NCBI RefSeq assembly: GCF_018141525.1
Contig: NZ_CP064655.1
Location: 3,070,501-3,134,500, forward strand
Length of the DNA stretch: 64,000 bases
Direction of reading: 5' to 3'
Source of the DNA: Miltoncostaea marina
GTDB lineage: Bacteria; Actinomycetota; Thermoleophilia; Miltoncostaeales; Miltoncostaeaceae
A program made the translations under genes and the position numbers. Positions within the stretch are counted from its first letter, which is position 1. Every line of letters starts with the position of its first letter. The notes under the pieces were generated by a model. It searched no databases, was not told the origin of the DNA, and saw only the letters and a list, made by a program, of their open reading frames with translations. Positions 38,674-47,749 of the stretch are shown here, in pieces.

Positions 38674-40014
38674 TCAACCGCGGCGCACGCGCGCCCAGGG
38701 GCCGGTGATCGCGTAGGTGCGGGCGAGCACCTTCTGGCCCTCGCCGTCGCGGTTGCCCTGCTGGTTCACGAACAGCACCGAGCCCGAGGGATCGAAGCAG
38801 GCGCCGCAGAACTCGGACTCCGGGGCGTCGATCGCGCGCGCGAAGTCGGAGATCTCCCCGCTCGTCGTGAGCAGCCGCAGGTACATCGGCGGGTCCGCGT
38901 CCTCGCAGAGGAGCAGGTCGCCGGTCGGCGTGACCACGAGGTTGTCCGGGTTCTTGAGTTCGTGGGGGCCCGGCGACTCGTAGATCAGCGTCAGCGTGCC
39001 CGCCGCGGGATCGAGCTCCCACACCTGCCCGAGGTCGACGGGGCCGCCGGAGGTGCAGCAGAAGTAGAAGCGGCCGCCCGCGACCCAGCAGCCCTCCTGC
39101 CGGTCGAAGATGGCCGCGCCCTTGCCGGCGGCCTCGAGCCGAAGCGTGTCCGCGGCGGGCTCGGGCTCGTCGATCCGGACCCACCGGACCGCCATCGGAC
39201 GCCCCACGGAGAGCCCGGACGAGGTGTCGAGGCCCGGCCGCCCGTCGACGGCCAGCGCCTCGAGGACTCCCGTCGATCGGGCGAGGTCGCCGGCGCGCCG
39301 CGGCCGCGTGGACGGGACGTAGCGGTACAGGCACGCGTTGGGGCCGCGGTCCTCGGTCTGGTAGAGCGCGCCGCCGAGCCAGCCCACCGCCTCGTGCACG
39401 AACCGCCCGGCGCCGCGGATCGGCTCGGCCTTCACGGGCCCGTCGGCCGACGCGTCGATCTCGAAGTTGTAGCCGTGCCGGACGCCGGTCGCGCCGGCGT
39501 CGACCACCTCCTCGGAGGTGATCCAGCTGCCCCACGGCGTGCGCCCGCCGGCGCAGTTGGTCGACGTGCCGCCCTGGATCGCGAAGCTCCGGGCGATCCG
39601 GCCGCCGCGCGTGACCACGACCTTGGTGCAGCCGGCGTTGTAGGTCGGGTCGGCGTCGTAGCGCAGGTCGTCGGGCACGACGACGGGCGACTCCCCGGGG
39701 CGGCGGCGGTTCTCGTGGTTGCGGATGAGGACCGTCGTGCTCGTCGGCCCGCGGAACGCCGCCATGCCGTCGAAGATGCCGGGCGTCGGCGATCCGTCGC
39801 TCATCAGGTCGCCCTCGCGGGAGATGACGCGGTGGTGAAAGCCCCGGGGCAGGGCGAGCTCGCCCTGTTCGATCAGCGGCCCGTAGCCCTCGCCGTCGAC
39901 GGGGGCGCCGACGGCGGCGCGCGCCCGGAACGCCGTGAGCGGCCCCGCGACCGCGAACCCCGCCGCCGCCGCCGCGCTGCGCTTGAGGAATGTCGATCGG
40001 TCGATCGTCGTCAC
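38674..40014 (-). CDS. PhoX-family (DUF839) alkaline phosphatase-like protein
   Basis: A 446-residue exported protein of the PhoX/DUF839 family. A leader with STFLKRSAAAAAGFAVA resembles a Tat signal, but the twin arginine is Arg6-Ser7, so only one of the two Arg is present. The propeller body has NHENRR (about 99-104), the TSTNCAGGRTPWGSWITSEE motif of PhoX active sites, and HELKNPDNLVV near residue 352. PhoX is a monomeric calcium/iron phosphatase induced in phosphate starvation. Gene neighbours tatA and pst fit this. A pair of PHO-like repeats lies about 100 bases upstream. Confidence 0.85.
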   Translation of the reverse strand: MTTIDRSTFLKRSAAAAAGFAVAGPLTAFRARAAVGAPVDGEGYGPLIEQGELALPRGFHHRVISREGDLMSDGSPTPGIFDGMAAFRGPTSTTVLIRNHENRRRPGESPVVVPDDLRYDADPTYNAGCTKVVVTRGGRIARSFAIQGGTSTNCAGGRTPWGSWITSEEVVDAGATGVRHGYNFEIDASADGPVKAEPIRGAGRFVHEAVGWLGGALYQTEDRGPNACLYRYVPSTRPRRAGDLARSTGVLEALAVDGRPGLDTSSGLSVGRPMAVRWVRIDEPEPAADTLRLEAAGKGAAIFDRQEGCWVAGGRFYFCCTSGGPVDLGQVWELDPAAGTLTLIYESPGPHELKNPDNLVVTPTGDLLLCEDADPPMYLRLLTTSGEISDFARAIDAPESEFCGACFDPSGSVLFVNQQGNRDGEGQKVLARTYAITGPWARVRRG

Positions 40015-40111: not shown

Positions 40112-40133
40112 CTTCACCGACCTGTCACGCGCG
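40112..40133 (+). promoter_or_regulatory. possible PHO box half (two 11-base repeats)
   Basis: Two adjacent 11-base units with TTCAC and GTCAC at the same offset (40112-40122 and 40123-40133). They resemble the units of the clear PHO box before pstS but are fewer and more divergent. They read toward the plus strand, while the PhoX gene is on the minus strand. Confidence 0.3.
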
Positions 40134-41399: not shown

Positions 41400-42281
41400 T
41401 CACCCGAAGCGCCCGGTGATGTAGTCCTGCGTTCGCTGGTCGCGTGGGGCGGAGAAGATCTGCTCCGTGTCGCCGTGCTCCACCAGCACGCCGTACCGCT
41501 GGTTGTCCTCCATGCCGGCGACCGTGAAGAAGCCGGTCGTGTGCGAGACGCGCGCCGCCTGCTGCATGTTGTGGGTCACGATCACGATGGTGTAGCGGGA
41601 GACGAGGTCGTGCATCAGGTCCTCGATCGCCAGCGTGGAGATGGGGTCCAGCGCCGAGCAGGGCTCGTCCATGAGGATGACCTCGGGCTCGACCGCGATC
41701 GCGCGCGCGATGCAGAGGCGCTGCTGCTGGCCGCCCGAGAGCGCGAACGCGTCCTGGTCGAGCTTGTCCTTCACCTCGTCCCAGAGGGCGGCGCGGCGCA
41801 GGACCTCCTCGATGCGGTCGTCGGTGACCTTCATCCCGTTGACCTTCATCCCGAAGCCGAGGTTGTCGCGGATGGACTTCGGGAACGGGTTGGGCTTCTG
41901 GAAGACCATGCCGATGCGCCGGCGCACGTCGACGGGGTCGACGTCGGAGGCGTAGAGGTCCTCACCGTGGAACAGGATCTCGCCGTCGACGCGGGTGCCC
42001 GGGATGAGGTCGTTCATCCGGTTGAGGCAGCGCAGGAACGTCGACTTCCCGCAACCGGACGGCCCGATCAGCGCCGTGATCTGGTTGCGCATGATGCGCA
42101 GGTCGATCCCCTTGAGCGCGGCGAAGTCGCCGTAGTGGAAGTCGAGGCCGCGCGCCTCGAACACGACCTCGTGCGCGCCGGGCGGCCGGGGAGGCGCCGC
42201 GGGCTCGGGCGTGATGGCCACCCTCCCGTTGCCGGCCACGGTGGCCGCCGCGCCGGAGGACGTGGTCGGGTCGTCGTGCAT
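41400..42281 (-). CDS. pstB: phosphate ABC transporter ATP-binding protein
   Basis: A 293-residue ABC ATPase. An N-terminal extension of about 38 residues is followed by the PstB core with Walker [10 protein letters not shown] (73-81), Q-loop FQKPNPFP, signature LSGGQQQR and Walker [14 protein letters not shown]. It energises high-affinity phosphate import with PstA and PstC. It is the last gene of pstSCAB, 14 bases after pstA. phoU, which usually follows, is not present. Confidence 0.97.
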
Positions 42282-42295
42282 ACGGAAGGCGCTCC

Positions 42296-43345
42296 TTACC
42301 AGCGTCGGCTGAACTTGTTGCGGAGGACGATCGCGACGAGGTTCATCACGATCAGCGTACCGAGCAGGACGATGATCCCGGCGGCGGCCAGATCCTGGAA
42401 CTCCTGCCGCGGCTCGCCGGCCCAGAAGAAGATCTGCAGCGGCATCGCCAGCAGCGGGGTGTCGTCGGCGTGGAGAGGGTTGAGGCTCGGCACCTGGGTG
42501 GCGAAGACGACGCCGCCCACCACGATGAGCGGGGCCGACTCGCCGATCGCGCGCGACAGCGCGAGGATCGTGCCCGTCAGCATGCCCGGCAGGGCGGCCG
42601 GGAAGACCTGCCGCGAGACGGCCTGCCAGCGCGTCGCGCCGAGCGCCATCGCGCCCTGCTCGATCGAGACGGGCACCGCCTTCACGGCCTCGCGGCTCGC
42701 GATGATGATGATCGGCAGGACGAGGAGCGCGAGGGTGAGCGCACCGGCCAGCATGTTCTTCTGCAGGCCCACGATCGACACGAACAGGGCCAGGCCGAGC
42801 AGGCCGTAGATGATCGACGGCACGGCCGCCAGGTTGGAGATGTTGACATCGACCGCCCGGTTGACCGGAGGGCCCAGGCGGGCCCAGGCGAACGACATCC
42901 GGGTGCGCGCGACCGCCAGCGCCAGCCGGGGGAGGCCGGCGTCGGCGGCGCGCAGCTCGGCGAGCCGCCGCTCGCGCGCCCGAGCCGAGGTCAGGAGCTG
43001 GTCGCGGCTCAGGTTGGCGAACTTCTCGAGGTAGAGCGCCGCGGCGAAGCCGATGGGCACGGCCGCGGCGAAGGTGATCACCATCATCACGAAGGTGACC
43101 CGGATCGATGAGTTGAACCCCGCCCGCTCCGGGTTGGTGGAGGTGCGGTTCGTCAGGAAGTCCCAGTCGAGCACCGGCAGGCCCTGGACCAGGATCGAGA
43201 CGAGCAGCCAGACGAGCGCGCCCATCGAGATGAGCACCGCGGTGAGCACGCCGCCGAAGAACAGCGCATCGGCCGGGCGGATGCGCTTCTTGGCGAGCGG
43301 GCGCGGGGCGGCGAGGCCGCGCCCGGAGGGGGTGTCGATGGCCAT
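42296..43345 (-). CDS. pstA: phosphate ABC transporter permease PstA
   Basis: A 349-residue permease with about six membrane helices. PstA features are clear: [20 protein letters not shown] and the EAA-type loop around [24 protein letters not shown]. Compared with typical PstA there is an extra charged/Arg-rich stretch of about 45 residues (about 127-175: [17 protein letters not shown] onward) before the ISNLAAVPS motif, which would extend a cytoplasmic or extracytoplasmic loop. It is 13 bases from the pstC stop. Confidence 0.95.
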
Positions 43346-43358
43346 GCGGGAGCGCCCC

Positions 43359-44300
43359 CTACTGGTAGACGGTGCGGAAGCGGCGCACGATGCGCACCGC
43401 GACCAGGTTGATGAGCAGGGTCACCACGAAGAGCAGGATGCCGACGGCGAAGATGGAGGTGTAGGTGAGGCTGCCGCGGGTCGCCTCGCCCTGGGACACC
43501 TGGACGATGTAGGCGGTGATCGTCTGCATCGGCGCCGTGGGGTCACCCGACAGGTTGGGCTGCGCCCCGGCGGCGAGGGTCACGGCCATCGTCTCGCCCA
43601 CCGCCCGCGAGAGCCCGAGGACGACGCCGGCCGCGATGCCCGACAGGGCCGCGGGGAACACGATGCGGGTCGCCACGTGGCGCCGGGTCGCGCCGACGCC
43701 GTACGCGCCCTCGCGCATCGACCGCGGCACCGCGCGCATCGCGTCCTCCGCCAGCGAGCTGATCAGGGGCGTGATGAGGATGCCGACCACGATGCCGGCC
43801 GCCAGCGCGCTGAACAGCTGCGTCTCGTCCAGCACCCCGATCGCCTTCAGCGCGGGGACGAGCGACTCGAGGGCGAAGAAGCCGAGCACGATCGTCGGCA
43901 TGCCGGCCAGCAGCTCCAGCACCGGCTTGACCGTGCGGCGGACGCGCTCGGGCGCGTACTCGGACAGGTAGACGGCCGAGCCGAGGCCCAGGGGGATGGC
44001 GACGAGGGCCGCGATGCCGGCGATGTACAGCGAGGCGACGAGCAGCGGCAGGACGCCGAAGGAGTCGTTGACCGGCTGCCAGACCGTCCCGGTGAGGAAC
44101 TCCCACACGGAGACGTCACCCTCGGTGAAGAACGGCAGGCCCTCGTCGAGCAGCGTGACGACGATGCCCACCGTGACCAGCACGGAGATCGTCGCCGCCG
44201 CCGCCAGGAGCAGGATCGCGACCTGCTCCAGCGGGCGGCGGCGGCGACGCCGCAGCGGCGCCGGCCCCTCGGCCGGCGGGGTGGTCCCGGCGCGCGCCAC
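43359..44300 (-). CDS. pstC: phosphate ABC transporter permease PstC
   Basis: A 313-residue permease. After an Arg-rich cytosolic N-terminus come six membrane helices with PstC motifs (LLAGMPTIVLGFFAL, SMREGAYGVGATRRHVATRI, GLSRAVGETMAVTLAAG). I chose the GTG at 44300-44298, 7 bases after the pstS stop; the frame extends upstream to 44453 only as antisense-like read-through of pstS. It pairs with PstA. Confidence 0.95.
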   Translation of the reverse strand: MARAGTTPPAEGPAPLRRRRRRPLEQVAILLLAAAATISVLVTVGIVVTLLDEGLPFFTEGDVSVWEFLTGTVWQPVNDSFGVLPLLVASLYIAGIAALVAIPLGLGSAVYLSEYAPERVRRTVKPVLELLAGMPTIVLGFFALESLVPALKAIGVLDETQLFSALAAGIVVGILITPLISSLAEDAMRAVPRSMREGAYGVGATRRHVATRIVFPAALSGIAAGVVLGLSRAVGETMAVTLAAGAQPNLSGDPTAPMQTITAYIVQVSQGEATRGSLTYTSIFAVGILLFVVTLLINLVAVRIVRRFRTVYQ

Positions 44301-44307
44301 GTCCGTC

Positions 44308-45285
44308 CTACTGCTCCGCCGGCAGCTTGGCCAGCGCCTCGTCCAGCGAGTCCTGCGGTGCCGGCACGTACTGGGCGTCCTCGGCGAGCTGGACGGCGTT
44401 CTCGAGGTAGTAGCGGACGTACCCGGCCACCTCGGGCCGCTCGAGCGAGGCATCCTTCACGTAGATGAAGAGCGGCCGCGAGAGCGGGTAGTCGCCGGAG
44501 GTGATCGTCTCGGCCGACGGCGCCACGCCGTCCACCGACAGCGCCTTCAGCGTGTCCTGGTTCTCCTCGAAGTACGAGAACCCGAAGTAGCCCATGCCCG
44601 CCTCGGCGCTCTGGACGGCGCGCACGATCACGTTGTCGTCCTCCGAGGCCGTGTAGTCCTGCCGCGGGGTGATCGTCTCGCCGCTCGCGTCCTCGCCGAG
44701 GACCTCCTCGTTGAAGAAGTCGTACGTGCCCGACTGCGAGCCGGGGCCGGCGAGGGTGAGCGGCGCGCTGGTGAACGAGCCGCCCGGGATGTCGGCCCAG
44801 TTCTTGACCTTCGAGTCGGGCATCCAGACCGCCTTCAGCTGGTCCATCGTGATGTCGTCGGAGCCGACGTCCGCGCCGGCGCCGGTGACGACCGTGATGC
44901 CGTCGGAGGCGACGCGCAGCTCCTGGTAGGTGACGCCGGCCTGCTCGCAGGCCGCCGCCTCGTCCTCCTTGATGGCGCGCGAGGCGTCCGAGATGTCGGT
45001 CTCGCCCGCGCAGAAGCGCTCGAAGCCGCCGCCGGTGCCGGACGTGCCGACCGTGATGTTGACGCCGGAGTGCTCGCCGGCGAAGGCCTCGGCGGCCGCC
45101 GAGGAGAGCGGCGCGACGGTCGAGGAGCCGTCGATCAGGATGTCCCCGGAGAGCGAGGCGGCGCCTCCGCCGCCGGTGGTGTCCGCCGAGCCGTCGTCGT
45201 CGTCGCCGCATGCGACGAGGCCGAGCGAGCCCACGGCGAGCGCCGCGGCTGCGGCGACCGTGGCCAAGCGACGTGCACGAGCCAT
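44308..45285 (-). CDS. pstS: phosphate-binding lipoprotein
   Basis: A 325-residue substrate-binding lipoprotein. Lipobox LVAC with Cys26. The PstS fold: IDGSSTVAPL (phosphate-binding Ser/Thr), GTSGTGGGFERFCAGETDISDASR with the phosphate loop, and SGTYDFFNEEVLGED. It captures phosphate outside the membrane and delivers it to PstAC. The ATG at 45285 follows AAGGAG by 9 bases. It heads pstSCAB and lies downstream of the PHO box and a TACCGT -10 element. Confidence 0.97.
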   Translation of the reverse strand: MARARRLATVAAAAALAVGSLGLVACGDDDDGSADTTGGGGAASLSGDILIDGSSTVAPLSSAAAEAFAGEHSGVNITVGTSGTGGGFERFCAGETDISDASRAIKEDEAAACEQAGVTYQELRVASDGITVVTGAGADVGSDDITMDQLKAVWMPDSKVKNWADIPGGSFTSAPLTLAGPGSQSGTYDFFNEEVLGEDASGETITPRQDYTASEDDNVIVRAVQSAEAGMGYFGFSYFEENQDTLKALSVDGVAPSAETITSGDYPLSRPLFIYVKDASLERPEVAGYVRYYLENAVQLAEDAQYVPAPQDSLDEALAKLPAEQ

Positions 45286-45349: not shown

Positions 45350-45355
45350 ACGGTA
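45350..45355 (-). promoter_or_regulatory. TACCGT -10 element of pstS
   Basis: Read on the minus strand, TACCGT lies 17 bases downstream of the PHO box, so the box occupies the -35 region, as in activator-dependent Pho promoters. The leader to the ATG would be about 58 bases and contains the AAGGAG. Confidence 0.6.
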
Positions 45356-45372: not shown

Positions 45373-45416
45373 CACAGGTGACGACGGTGTGACGCTGTCG
45401 TGAACGACCTGTGAAC
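45373..45416 (-). promoter_or_regulatory. PHO box: four 11-base direct repeats
   Basis: On the minus strand four consecutive 11-base units share TCAC at the same offset: GTTCACAGGTC, GTTCACGACAG, CGTCACACCGT and CGTCACCTGTG. This matches the direct-repeat-unit design of actinobacterial PhoP boxes. It lies between pstS (minus) and the first ATP-grasp gene (plus). Confidence 0.8.
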
Positions 45417-45436: not shown

Positions 45437-45442
45437 TAGACT
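45437..45442 (+). promoter_or_regulatory. TAGACT -10-like element of the ATP-grasp pair
   Basis: TAGACT lies 20 bases to the right of the PHO box and 31 bases before the ATG at 45474. With the box at about -35 on this side too, the promoter could be shared. Confidence 0.45.
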
Positions 45443-45473: not shown

Positions 45474-46607
45474 ATGATCGACGAGGCCCGTCGGCAGTCA
45501 CTGCGCGTCGCGCGCGGCCTCGCGCGCCGCGGGCGCGACGGCGCCGCGCGGGCGCGCCGCAGCGCGTGGATCGCCGGCGCGGTCCTGCGCGACGGCGGCC
45601 CGGGGGCGGCCCTGCCGCTCGCCCGCCGCGCGGCCCACCTGCTGGGGCCTCGCCGGTTCGGGCTGGAGGAGGCCTACACCCTCGGGCTGCTCGACCCGCG
45701 CGCGGCGGACGACCTCGTCGACGCCTCGGTCAGCAAGCGGGAGCTGATCGCGCTGCAGGCCCGCCTCAACCCGAACGAGTTCTGGTACCTGACCGAGGAC
45801 AAGGCGGTCTTCTCCCGCCTCGCCGAGGCGGTCGGCGTGCGGGTTCCGGCGCTGCTGGCGATCCTCTGCGACACCGGTCCCGGCTGGTCGGCGACGGGCG
45901 AGCCGCTCGCCCGCGCCGGCGACTGGGAGCGCCTGTTCGCCGAGGGCCTGCCCGACACGTTCGTGGTCAAGCCGGCCCGCGGCTACCACGGCCTGGGCGT
46001 GCGGGTGGTCGAGCGGCGCGACGGGCTGCTGCACCAGCTCGGCGGCGAGGCGGTCACGCCCGCGCAGCTCGCGCGCGAGCTCGTCGCCGATCGCCAGTTC
46101 CACATCCACGTGGTGCAGGAGCGGATCACCAACGCGCCCGGGGTGCCCGGCGCGCGCAGCGCCGTCCAGACGGCCCGCATCGCGACGCTCGTGGAGCGCG
46201 ACGGGTCCGTCCGGCCGCTCAACGCGTTCTTCAGGTCGGCGCTCGAGGGCAACGTCATCGACAACTTCCGCCACGGGGCGACCGGGAACCTGGTCGCGCC
46301 GCTCGATCCCGCGTCGGGCACGGTCCTGGGCCTCACCGCGGTCGGCGACGACGGCGTCCTGCGCGAGGTGGAGCCGCCGCCCGGGACGAACGCGCCGGCG
46401 CCGGGCACGCGGATGCCGATGTGGGACGAGTGCCTGGAGCTCGTGCGCTTCGCGGCGCCGCGCTTCCTGCCCATGCGCACGCTCGGCTGGGACGTGGCCG
46501 TGACCCCCGACGGGCCGACGATCGTGGAGGCGAACATGTGGTGGGACCCGGTCGGCTCCGTGCACGGGGTGCGCGCCGCGCTCGACGCCCTGAGGGCTGC
46601 GGCGTGA
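45474..46607 (+). CDS. sugar-transfer-associated ATP-grasp protein, first of a tandem pair
   Basis: A 377-residue cytosolic protein of the ATPgrasp_ST type. An Arg/Ala-rich helical N-terminus (1-70) precedes the ATP-grasp core: WYLTEDKAVFSRLAEAVGV (about 104-122), the nucleotide-binding FVVKPARGYHGLGVRVV (about 161-177), VIDNFRHGATGN (about 262-273) and the metal-binding end GWDVAVTPDGPTIVEANMW (about 341-359). The family is linked to exopolysaccharide and glycan loci, where it may ligate a carboxylate. The ATG at 45474 follows CGAGGCGAG. It shares the PHO box region with divergent pstS. Confidence 0.82.
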   Translation: MIDEARRQSLRVARGLARRGRDGAARARRSAWIAGAVLRDGGPGAALPLARRAAHLLGPRRFGLEEAYTLGLLDPRAADDLVDASVSKRELIALQARLNPNEFWYLTEDKAVFSRLAEAVGVRVPALLAILCDTGPGWSATGEPLARAGDWERLFAEGLPDTFVVKPARGYHGLGVRVVERRDGLLHQLGGEAVTPAQLARELVADRQFHIHVVQERITNAPGVPGARSAVQTARIATLVERDGSVRPLNAFFRSALEGNVIDNFRHGATGNLVAPLDPASGTVLGLTAVGDDGVLREVEPPPGTNAPAPGTRMPMWDECLELVRFAAPRFLPMRTLGWDVAVTPDGPTIVEANMWWDPVGSVHGVRAALDALRAAA

Positions 46608-47749
46608 GCGCGCTCGCGGCGGCCGCCCGGCTGCGGGGAAGGATCGCCCACGCGGCCGGCTGGCGCCTGCGCGAGGCGCGCTCGTGGGCCGGCCGGACCG
46701 CCGAGATCGCCCGCGCGACGCGCGCCGAGCACCCCGGGCGCGACGCCGCGCTGGCCCGGCGGGCGGTCGACCTGCTGGCACGGCGGGGCTTCACGCTGGA
46801 CGAGGCGTACACGCTGGGGCTGTTCGACCCCTCGCTCGGGCAGGCGGAGCTCGACGACCGGGTCCCCAAACGGCGGATGGTCCGCGAGCAGGCCGCGCTC
46901 AACCCCAACGAGCTCTGGTACCTGACCGAGGACAAGGCGATCTTCTACCGCTACGCCGAGGCGGTCGGCGTGCGGGTGCCCGTCCTCCACGCCATCCTCT
47001 GCGAGTCCGGGCCGGCGTGGACGCGCACCGGCGCCGTGCTGACCGGCCCGTCCGACTGGGCCCGGCACCTCGAGACCGCCGTCCCGGACGAGTTCGTGGT
47101 CAAGCCGGCGCGCGGCTACTACGGGCTCGGCGTGCGGCTGGTGTCCCGCCGCGACGGGGCCCTCCACGTGGTGGGCGCCGGCCCGACGAGCGCCGACGCG
47201 CTGTGCCGCGAGCTCGCGGAGGACCGCCAGTTCCACATCCACCTCGTGCAGGAGCGCCTGCGCGACCACCCCGAGATGCCGGGGGGCGGGCGCGCCCTGC
47301 AGACGCTGCGGGTGATCACGCTGATGGACCGGCTCAACGAGCCGCGCGTGATCAACTCGCAGTGGCGGCTCGCCGTGGGCGGCGGGGTCATCGACAACTT
47401 CCACGGCGGCACGACCGGCAACGTGCTGTCGATCGTGCAGGACCTCCGGGACGGCACCCTCGGCCCCGTGATCCGCGCCGGTGAGCGGCGGCGCTTCGAG
47501 CTGGTGCCGGCCGGCAGCATCCCGGGCACCCCGGCCCCCGGGGCGCGGGTGCCGCTGTGGGACGAGGTGGTCGACCTCGTGCACACGGCCGCCCGGCGGT
47601 TCCTGCCGATGCGCTGCATCGGCTGGGACGTGGCGGTCACGCCCGACGGCCCGGTCATCGTCGAGGCCAACATCTGGTGGGACCCGCCCTCGCCGCAGCG
47701 CGGCACCGGCGAGCTCGTGCGGCTGATGCGCGAGTCCCTGGGGGACTGA
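46604..47749 (+). CDS. sugar-transfer-associated ATP-grasp protein, second of a tandem pair
   Basis: A 381-residue paralogue of the preceding gene. The same landmarks are present: AYTLGLFDPSLGQAELDDRV, LNPNELWYLTEDKAIFYRYA, FVVKPARGYYGLGVRLV, LQTLRVITLMDRLNE, VIDNFHGGTTGN and GWDVAVTPDGPVIVEANIWW. The GTG at 46604 overlaps the previous stop (GTGA). The two copies have diverged, which fits different substrates or a heteromeric enzyme. A role in making a phosphate-poor wall or surface polymer in phosphate starvation is an inference from the PHO box. Confidence 0.82.
   Translation: MSALAAAARLRGRIAHAAGWRLREARSWAGRTAEIARATRAEHPGRDAALARRAVDLLARRGFTLDEAYTLGLFDPSLGQAELDDRVPKRRMVREQAALNPNELWYLTEDKAIFYRYAEAVGVRVPVLHAILCESGPAWTRTGAVLTGPSDWARHLETAVPDEFVVKPARGYYGLGVRLVSRRDGALHVVGAGPTSADALCRELAEDRQFHIHLVQERLRDHPEMPGGGRALQTLRVITLMDRLNEPRVINSQWRLAVGGGVIDNFHGGTTGNVLSIVQDLRDGTLGPVIRAGERRRFELVPAGSIPGTPAPGARVPLWDEVVDLVHTAARRFLPMRCIGWDVAVTPDGPVIVEANIWWDPPSPQRGTGELVRLMRESLGD

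Follow-up and report, generated by a model that had tools for sequence, protein, structure and literature searches.

The four-unit direct repeat lying between pstS and a divergent pair of ATP-grasp genes very probably serves the pstSCAB promoter as its PhoP/PhoB operator, and the adjoining ATP-grasp pair probably carries its own -10 element, TAGACT. The genes and elements concerned are located as follows in the window (i.e. the whole 64-kb stretch of DNA that was analysed):

41400..42281, minus strand: pstB (TIGR00972, 375.5 bits)
42296..43345, minus strand: pstA (TIGR00974, 220.6 bits)
43359..44300, minus strand: pstC, start codon uncertain (TIGR02138, 264 bits)
44308..45285, minus strand: pstS, phosphate-binding protein (TIGR02136, 259.5 bits; PF12849)
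45350..45355, minus strand: TACCGT, putative -10 of the pstSCAB promoter, 22 nt past the last TCAC
45373..45416, minus strand: PHO-box-like array of 4 x 11-nt direct repeats, reading toward pstS
45411-45414, 45400-45403, 45389-45392 and 45378-45381, minus strand: TCAC cores of the array
45437..45442, plus strand: TAGACT, putative ATP-grasp -10, separated by 20 nt from the end of the array
45474..46607, plus strand: ATPgrasp_ST gene 1 (PF14397, 104.7 bits), ATG at 45474, preceded by GAGGCGAG
46604..47749, plus strand: ATPgrasp_ST gene 2 (PF14397, 90.5 bits on 46628-47749)

The ATG codons of pstS (45285) and of the first ATP-grasp gene (45474) have 188 bases between them. The first ATP-grasp gene encodes 377 aa, equal in length to the corresponding open reading frame of the congener G019, and the second, whose translation was inspected manually, is taken to start at a GTG near 46604 that overlaps the stop of the first. 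Downstream of pstB lies a PhoX-family alkaline phosphatase gene (38674-40014, minus strand; PF05787, 198 bits); about 100 bp upstream of that gene, a two-unit box, TTCACCGACCTGTCAC (40113-40128, plus strand), faces away from it and may be due to chance.

Read on the minus strand from 45416 to 45373, the array consists of four consecutive 11-mers, GTTCACAGGTC, GTTCACGACAG, CGTCACACCGT and CGTCACCTGTG, in which TCAC keeps a constant offset. The preliminary description of this DNA had reported four in-phase 11-base TCAC repeats, which is exact to the base, as are the gaps that it gave between the array and the two hexamers (17 nt to TACCGT on the pstS side and 20 nt to TAGACT on the ATP-grasp side). 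The units are graded, two being strong (GTTCAC) and two weaker, and the best GTTCAC pair is nearest the ATP-grasp side. Four TCAC motifs at 11-nt spacing occur at one site in the window, whereas none of 100 dinucleotide shuffles produced them, and 11 is the sole period among those from 6 to 20 that yields a four-unit TCAC chain in the window. The genome (3.37 Mb, a single contig) holds no second four-unit TCAC array; the three-unit form is found at three sites in the whole genome, two of them within the pst array itself and the third upstream of a PhoB-like response-regulator gene, and the three-unit pattern read backwards has 0 matches in the same 3.37 Mb. The four-unit array is far beyond chance.

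For the relatives, 42 genomes of the order were searched, with a PstS match in 31, and TCAC-like units recurring every 11 nt were sought upstream of pstS. Comparison of the intergenic region bears out that the repeats are conserved upstream of pstS: 12 genomes of the order have arrays of at least three units ahead of the gene, 13 in all since G021 is represented by two contigs, and two-unit boxes are present at pstS in several further genomes. No upstream array was found for the weaker PstS homologues or on some contigs that are cut at the gene. Past the last unit slot, a TAnnnT hexamer follows at 22 nt in nine of the 13 arrays, at 21 nt in three and at 11 nt in one, the spacing in G013, G007 and G018 (three of the 12 arrays at 21-22 nt) being counted from a degenerate fourth slot that has lost its TCAC. 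Five further three-unit arrays of relatives, at loci L170, L173, L174, L175 and L177, show TAnnnT at 21 nt in 5/5 cases; where the gene behind the array was checked (by Pfam, in L170), it encodes a response regulator. Among the arrays compared, the orientation toward pst is the conserved one.

Retention of the array in the congener G021 and in other genera whose pst locus has no ATP-grasp neighbours indicates that it is an ancestral pst operator. Sequence, orientation, near-fixed -10 spacing and order-wide conservation together strongly support both the earlier proposal of a PHO box driving pstS and the assignment of the array as a PHO box of the PhoP/PhoB type directed at pstSCAB. Under low phosphate, a phosphorylated PhoB-family regulator would bind the repeat units in head-to-tail order and recruit RNA polymerase to TACCGT, 22 nt from the last TCAC. 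The binding and recruitment steps are taken over from the PHO-box literature; the anatomy, orientation, spacing and conservation are seen in the DNA itself. Among the papers listed by literature searches on Pho regulation in Thermoleophilia and on Miltoncostaea, none dealt with such PHO boxes by its title or abstract, and the present comparison would extend the actinobacterial PHO box with near-fixed unit-to--10 spacing to an order of that class.

A candidate regulator is at hand. The genome encodes PhoU as well as the PhoB-like response regulator (MEILIVEDDES..., gene at G000:C1:668362-669093), for which the best NCBIfam model is TIGR02154 PhoB at 183 bits, below the cut-off of 296. The three-unit box is in this gene's own promoter; the G019 orthologue keeps three TCAC units upstream, and the G021 orthologue has two GTTCAC units followed by TCAC at 10-nt spacing. 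This distribution suggests that arrays of this type mark a phosphate regulon whose PhoB-family gene is under its own control. At the boxes of the regulator and of pit in this genome, no TAnnnT was found at the distance that holds for pst. At another locus (L146:4900-5200, i.e. G000:C1 near 697000), a phosphate transporter gene of the PHO4 family diverges from a gene with a CHAP domain, and the intergenic region holds two short boxes in opposite orientations, with TAnnnT not found at the usual spacing. Two-unit pairs were tried as a finder of Pho promoters and rejected as mostly noise, both as KTCAC pairs (18 matches vs 2 reversed) and with two mismatches allowed (93 matches vs 22 reversed); most of the extra two-unit loci inspected (seven from the mismatch search plus the KTCAC ones) lay inside or away from gene starts. 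The Pho sites relied on in this genome are only those of pst, the regulator and pit.

A sigma-70 consensus promoter with its two hexamers was looked for on each side of the array in this genome and not found, so both promoters are placed by a TAnnnT -10 alone. TAGACT occurs once in the window, where chance would give a mean of 1.76 copies, so its count alone is that of chance. The heptamer TAGACTC is common to the flanks of this genome, where its distance from the array is 20 nt, and of G019, where it is 22 nt, with flanks of relatives compared by anchoring on the array. Of 20,000 shuffles of the bases, a fraction of 0.00025 had TAnnnT in the two flanks at positions agreeing to within 3 nt, and none had a heptamer with TAnnnT common to both. 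TAGACTC was not present in either G021 flank examined (one of them only ~50 nt long), and the conservation of TAGACT is that between two species. Inspection by eye of the two flanks compared showed no TTGACA-like hexamer at a distance of 16-18 nt from TAGACT. In the other nine arrays, TAnnnT on this second side lies at 34, 40 or 55 nt, or not within 90 nt; the array-to--10 distance is 20 and 22 nt in the two species and has no common value in the other 11 arrays. In G020 and G021 (L220, L222), a second response-regulator gene has TAGACT ahead of it, with six bases between this hexamer and the GTG start codon, which looks like a leaderless promoter with the same -10 and fits TAGACT being a genuine -10 of the genus. 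The TAGACT promoter is probably real.

Among the loci examined, an ATP-grasp pair diverges from pstS only in this genome and in G019, of the same genus. A tblastn search (1e-5) found no ATP-grasp neighbours of pstS in the 60 loci L005-L064, with flanks of up to 6 kb that in many cases were ended by contig ends, and with L065 and L066 lacking a full pstS; relatives of the ATP-grasp genes are present in 8/119 genomes of the class sample. In G021 a Cys_Met_Meta_PP gene takes the place of the pair beside the pst array, and in G019 that gene comes after the pair; in G007 a CoA_binding_2 gene is divergent from pstS. The pair looks, we infer, as if it had been inserted beside a pre-existing operator, the alternative being its loss in G021. 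A literature search by the Pfam name and accession of ATPgrasp_ST found no paper.

The array lies between two divergent promoters, an arrangement of the phoRP-phoU type known from Streptomyces, and the preliminary description had placed it at about -35 for both. That geometry is correct, and TAGACT is kept in G019. Basal transcription of the ATP-grasp pair would most likely proceed from its own TAGACT -10 with a short leader, and given the start site so predicted, the outer GTTCAC would fall at about -39 to -34, where bound PhoP may help, hinder or leave the promoter unaffected. It is quite possible, if somewhat short of an even chance, that the array serves pst alone and that the ATP-grasp promoter is constitutive or otherwise controlled. 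The array occurs without ATP-grasp genes alongside, and in G010-G012, where a gene of the pyridine nucleotide-disulphide oxidoreductase family is divergent, the nearest TAnnnT is at 34-55 nt and the geometry is not fixed; however, with TAGACT only 20-22 nt away in the two species, the promoters are close enough to make interference likely. An opposing role, with PhoP repressing the ATP-grasp promoter by covering its -35 region so that the genes are on when phosphate is plentiful, appears rather unlikely though not negligible. The outer GTTCAC (45411-45416) overlaps the site that a -35 hexamer would take at 17-18 nt spacing, and Streptomyces PhoP is described as directly binding the promoters of some genes to repress them (PMC4415409), but sigma may still have space for contact at the edge of the array.

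Activation of both directions by the single array, with PhoP on the outer units recruiting polymerase to TAGACT and the ATP-grasp operon thereby belonging to the Pho regulon, is a rather doubtful though not negligible prospect. The geometry is nearly mirrored (core to -10, 22 nt on the pst side vs 20/22 nt on the other), the two best units are those nearest the ATP-grasp side, the gene pair and TAGACT are kept together in two species, and the Streptomyces phoRP-phoU region (PMC6283541) offers a precedent in PHO boxes of phoU direction beside a self-activated phoRP. Against this, the repeats are oriented the wrong way for the ATP-grasp gene, toward pstS only; the spacing on its side differs between the species (20 vs 22 nt); the array persists in relatives without ATP-grasp genes; and a PHO box was found at 0/12 other ATPgrasp_ST loci examined, including this genome's third copy. 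Moreover, four relatives in which a PhoB-like gene diverges from its neighbour (L170, L174, L175 and L177; regulator identity scanned in L170 only) use two outward arrays, each toward its own gene. The neighbour, scanned in L170, L174 and L177, is a PBP_like_2 protein in all three and was identified as PstS by TIGR00975 in L170; TAnnnT was found in the 45 nt next to the neighbour-side array in 0/4 of these loci. They show two arrays to be, apparently, the way of this clade where the genes on the two sides both look phosphate-related, with which a single array serving two would still be compatible. Overall, the comparison of relatives lends little support to shared two-way control.

A narrower proposal, that a newly arrived ATPgrasp_ST pair took over the pst-oriented PhoP array and joined the Pho regulon in reverse orientation, seems improbable. 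If true, the pair would have a phosphate-starvation function, perhaps in the remodelling of envelope glycopolymers. With its two species, the arrangement offers a natural experiment on whether an adjoining gene pair can make use, from behind, of an activator array that is specific for one direction.

As an operator of pstSCAB, the array can be set beside its closest known systems. The pho box of Escherichia coli consists of tandem repeats beside the -10 that replace the -35, as in the array described here, but it has a CTGTCAT core and a different repeat-to--10 spacing. The PHO box of Streptomyces PhoP (GTTCACC) shares 11-nt head-to-tail units, the GTTCAC core, a location ahead of both pstS and the regulator gene, and two strong plus two weaker units. 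It differs in having C after the core, where the two strong units here have A or G, and the lineage here is Thermoleophilia. The tandem repeat structure is also what is shared with the E. coli PhoB pho box (PMC4415409). In Streptomyces, four repeat units in phoU direction lie between phoU and the phoRP operon, which PhoP itself activates (PMC6283541). That region and the present one have in common a PHO-box array of one orientation between two divergent promoters. They differ in that phosphate-signalling genes occupy both sides there, their starts having been mapped and PhoP binding shown, whereas the second side here is an uncharacterised ATP-grasp pair.
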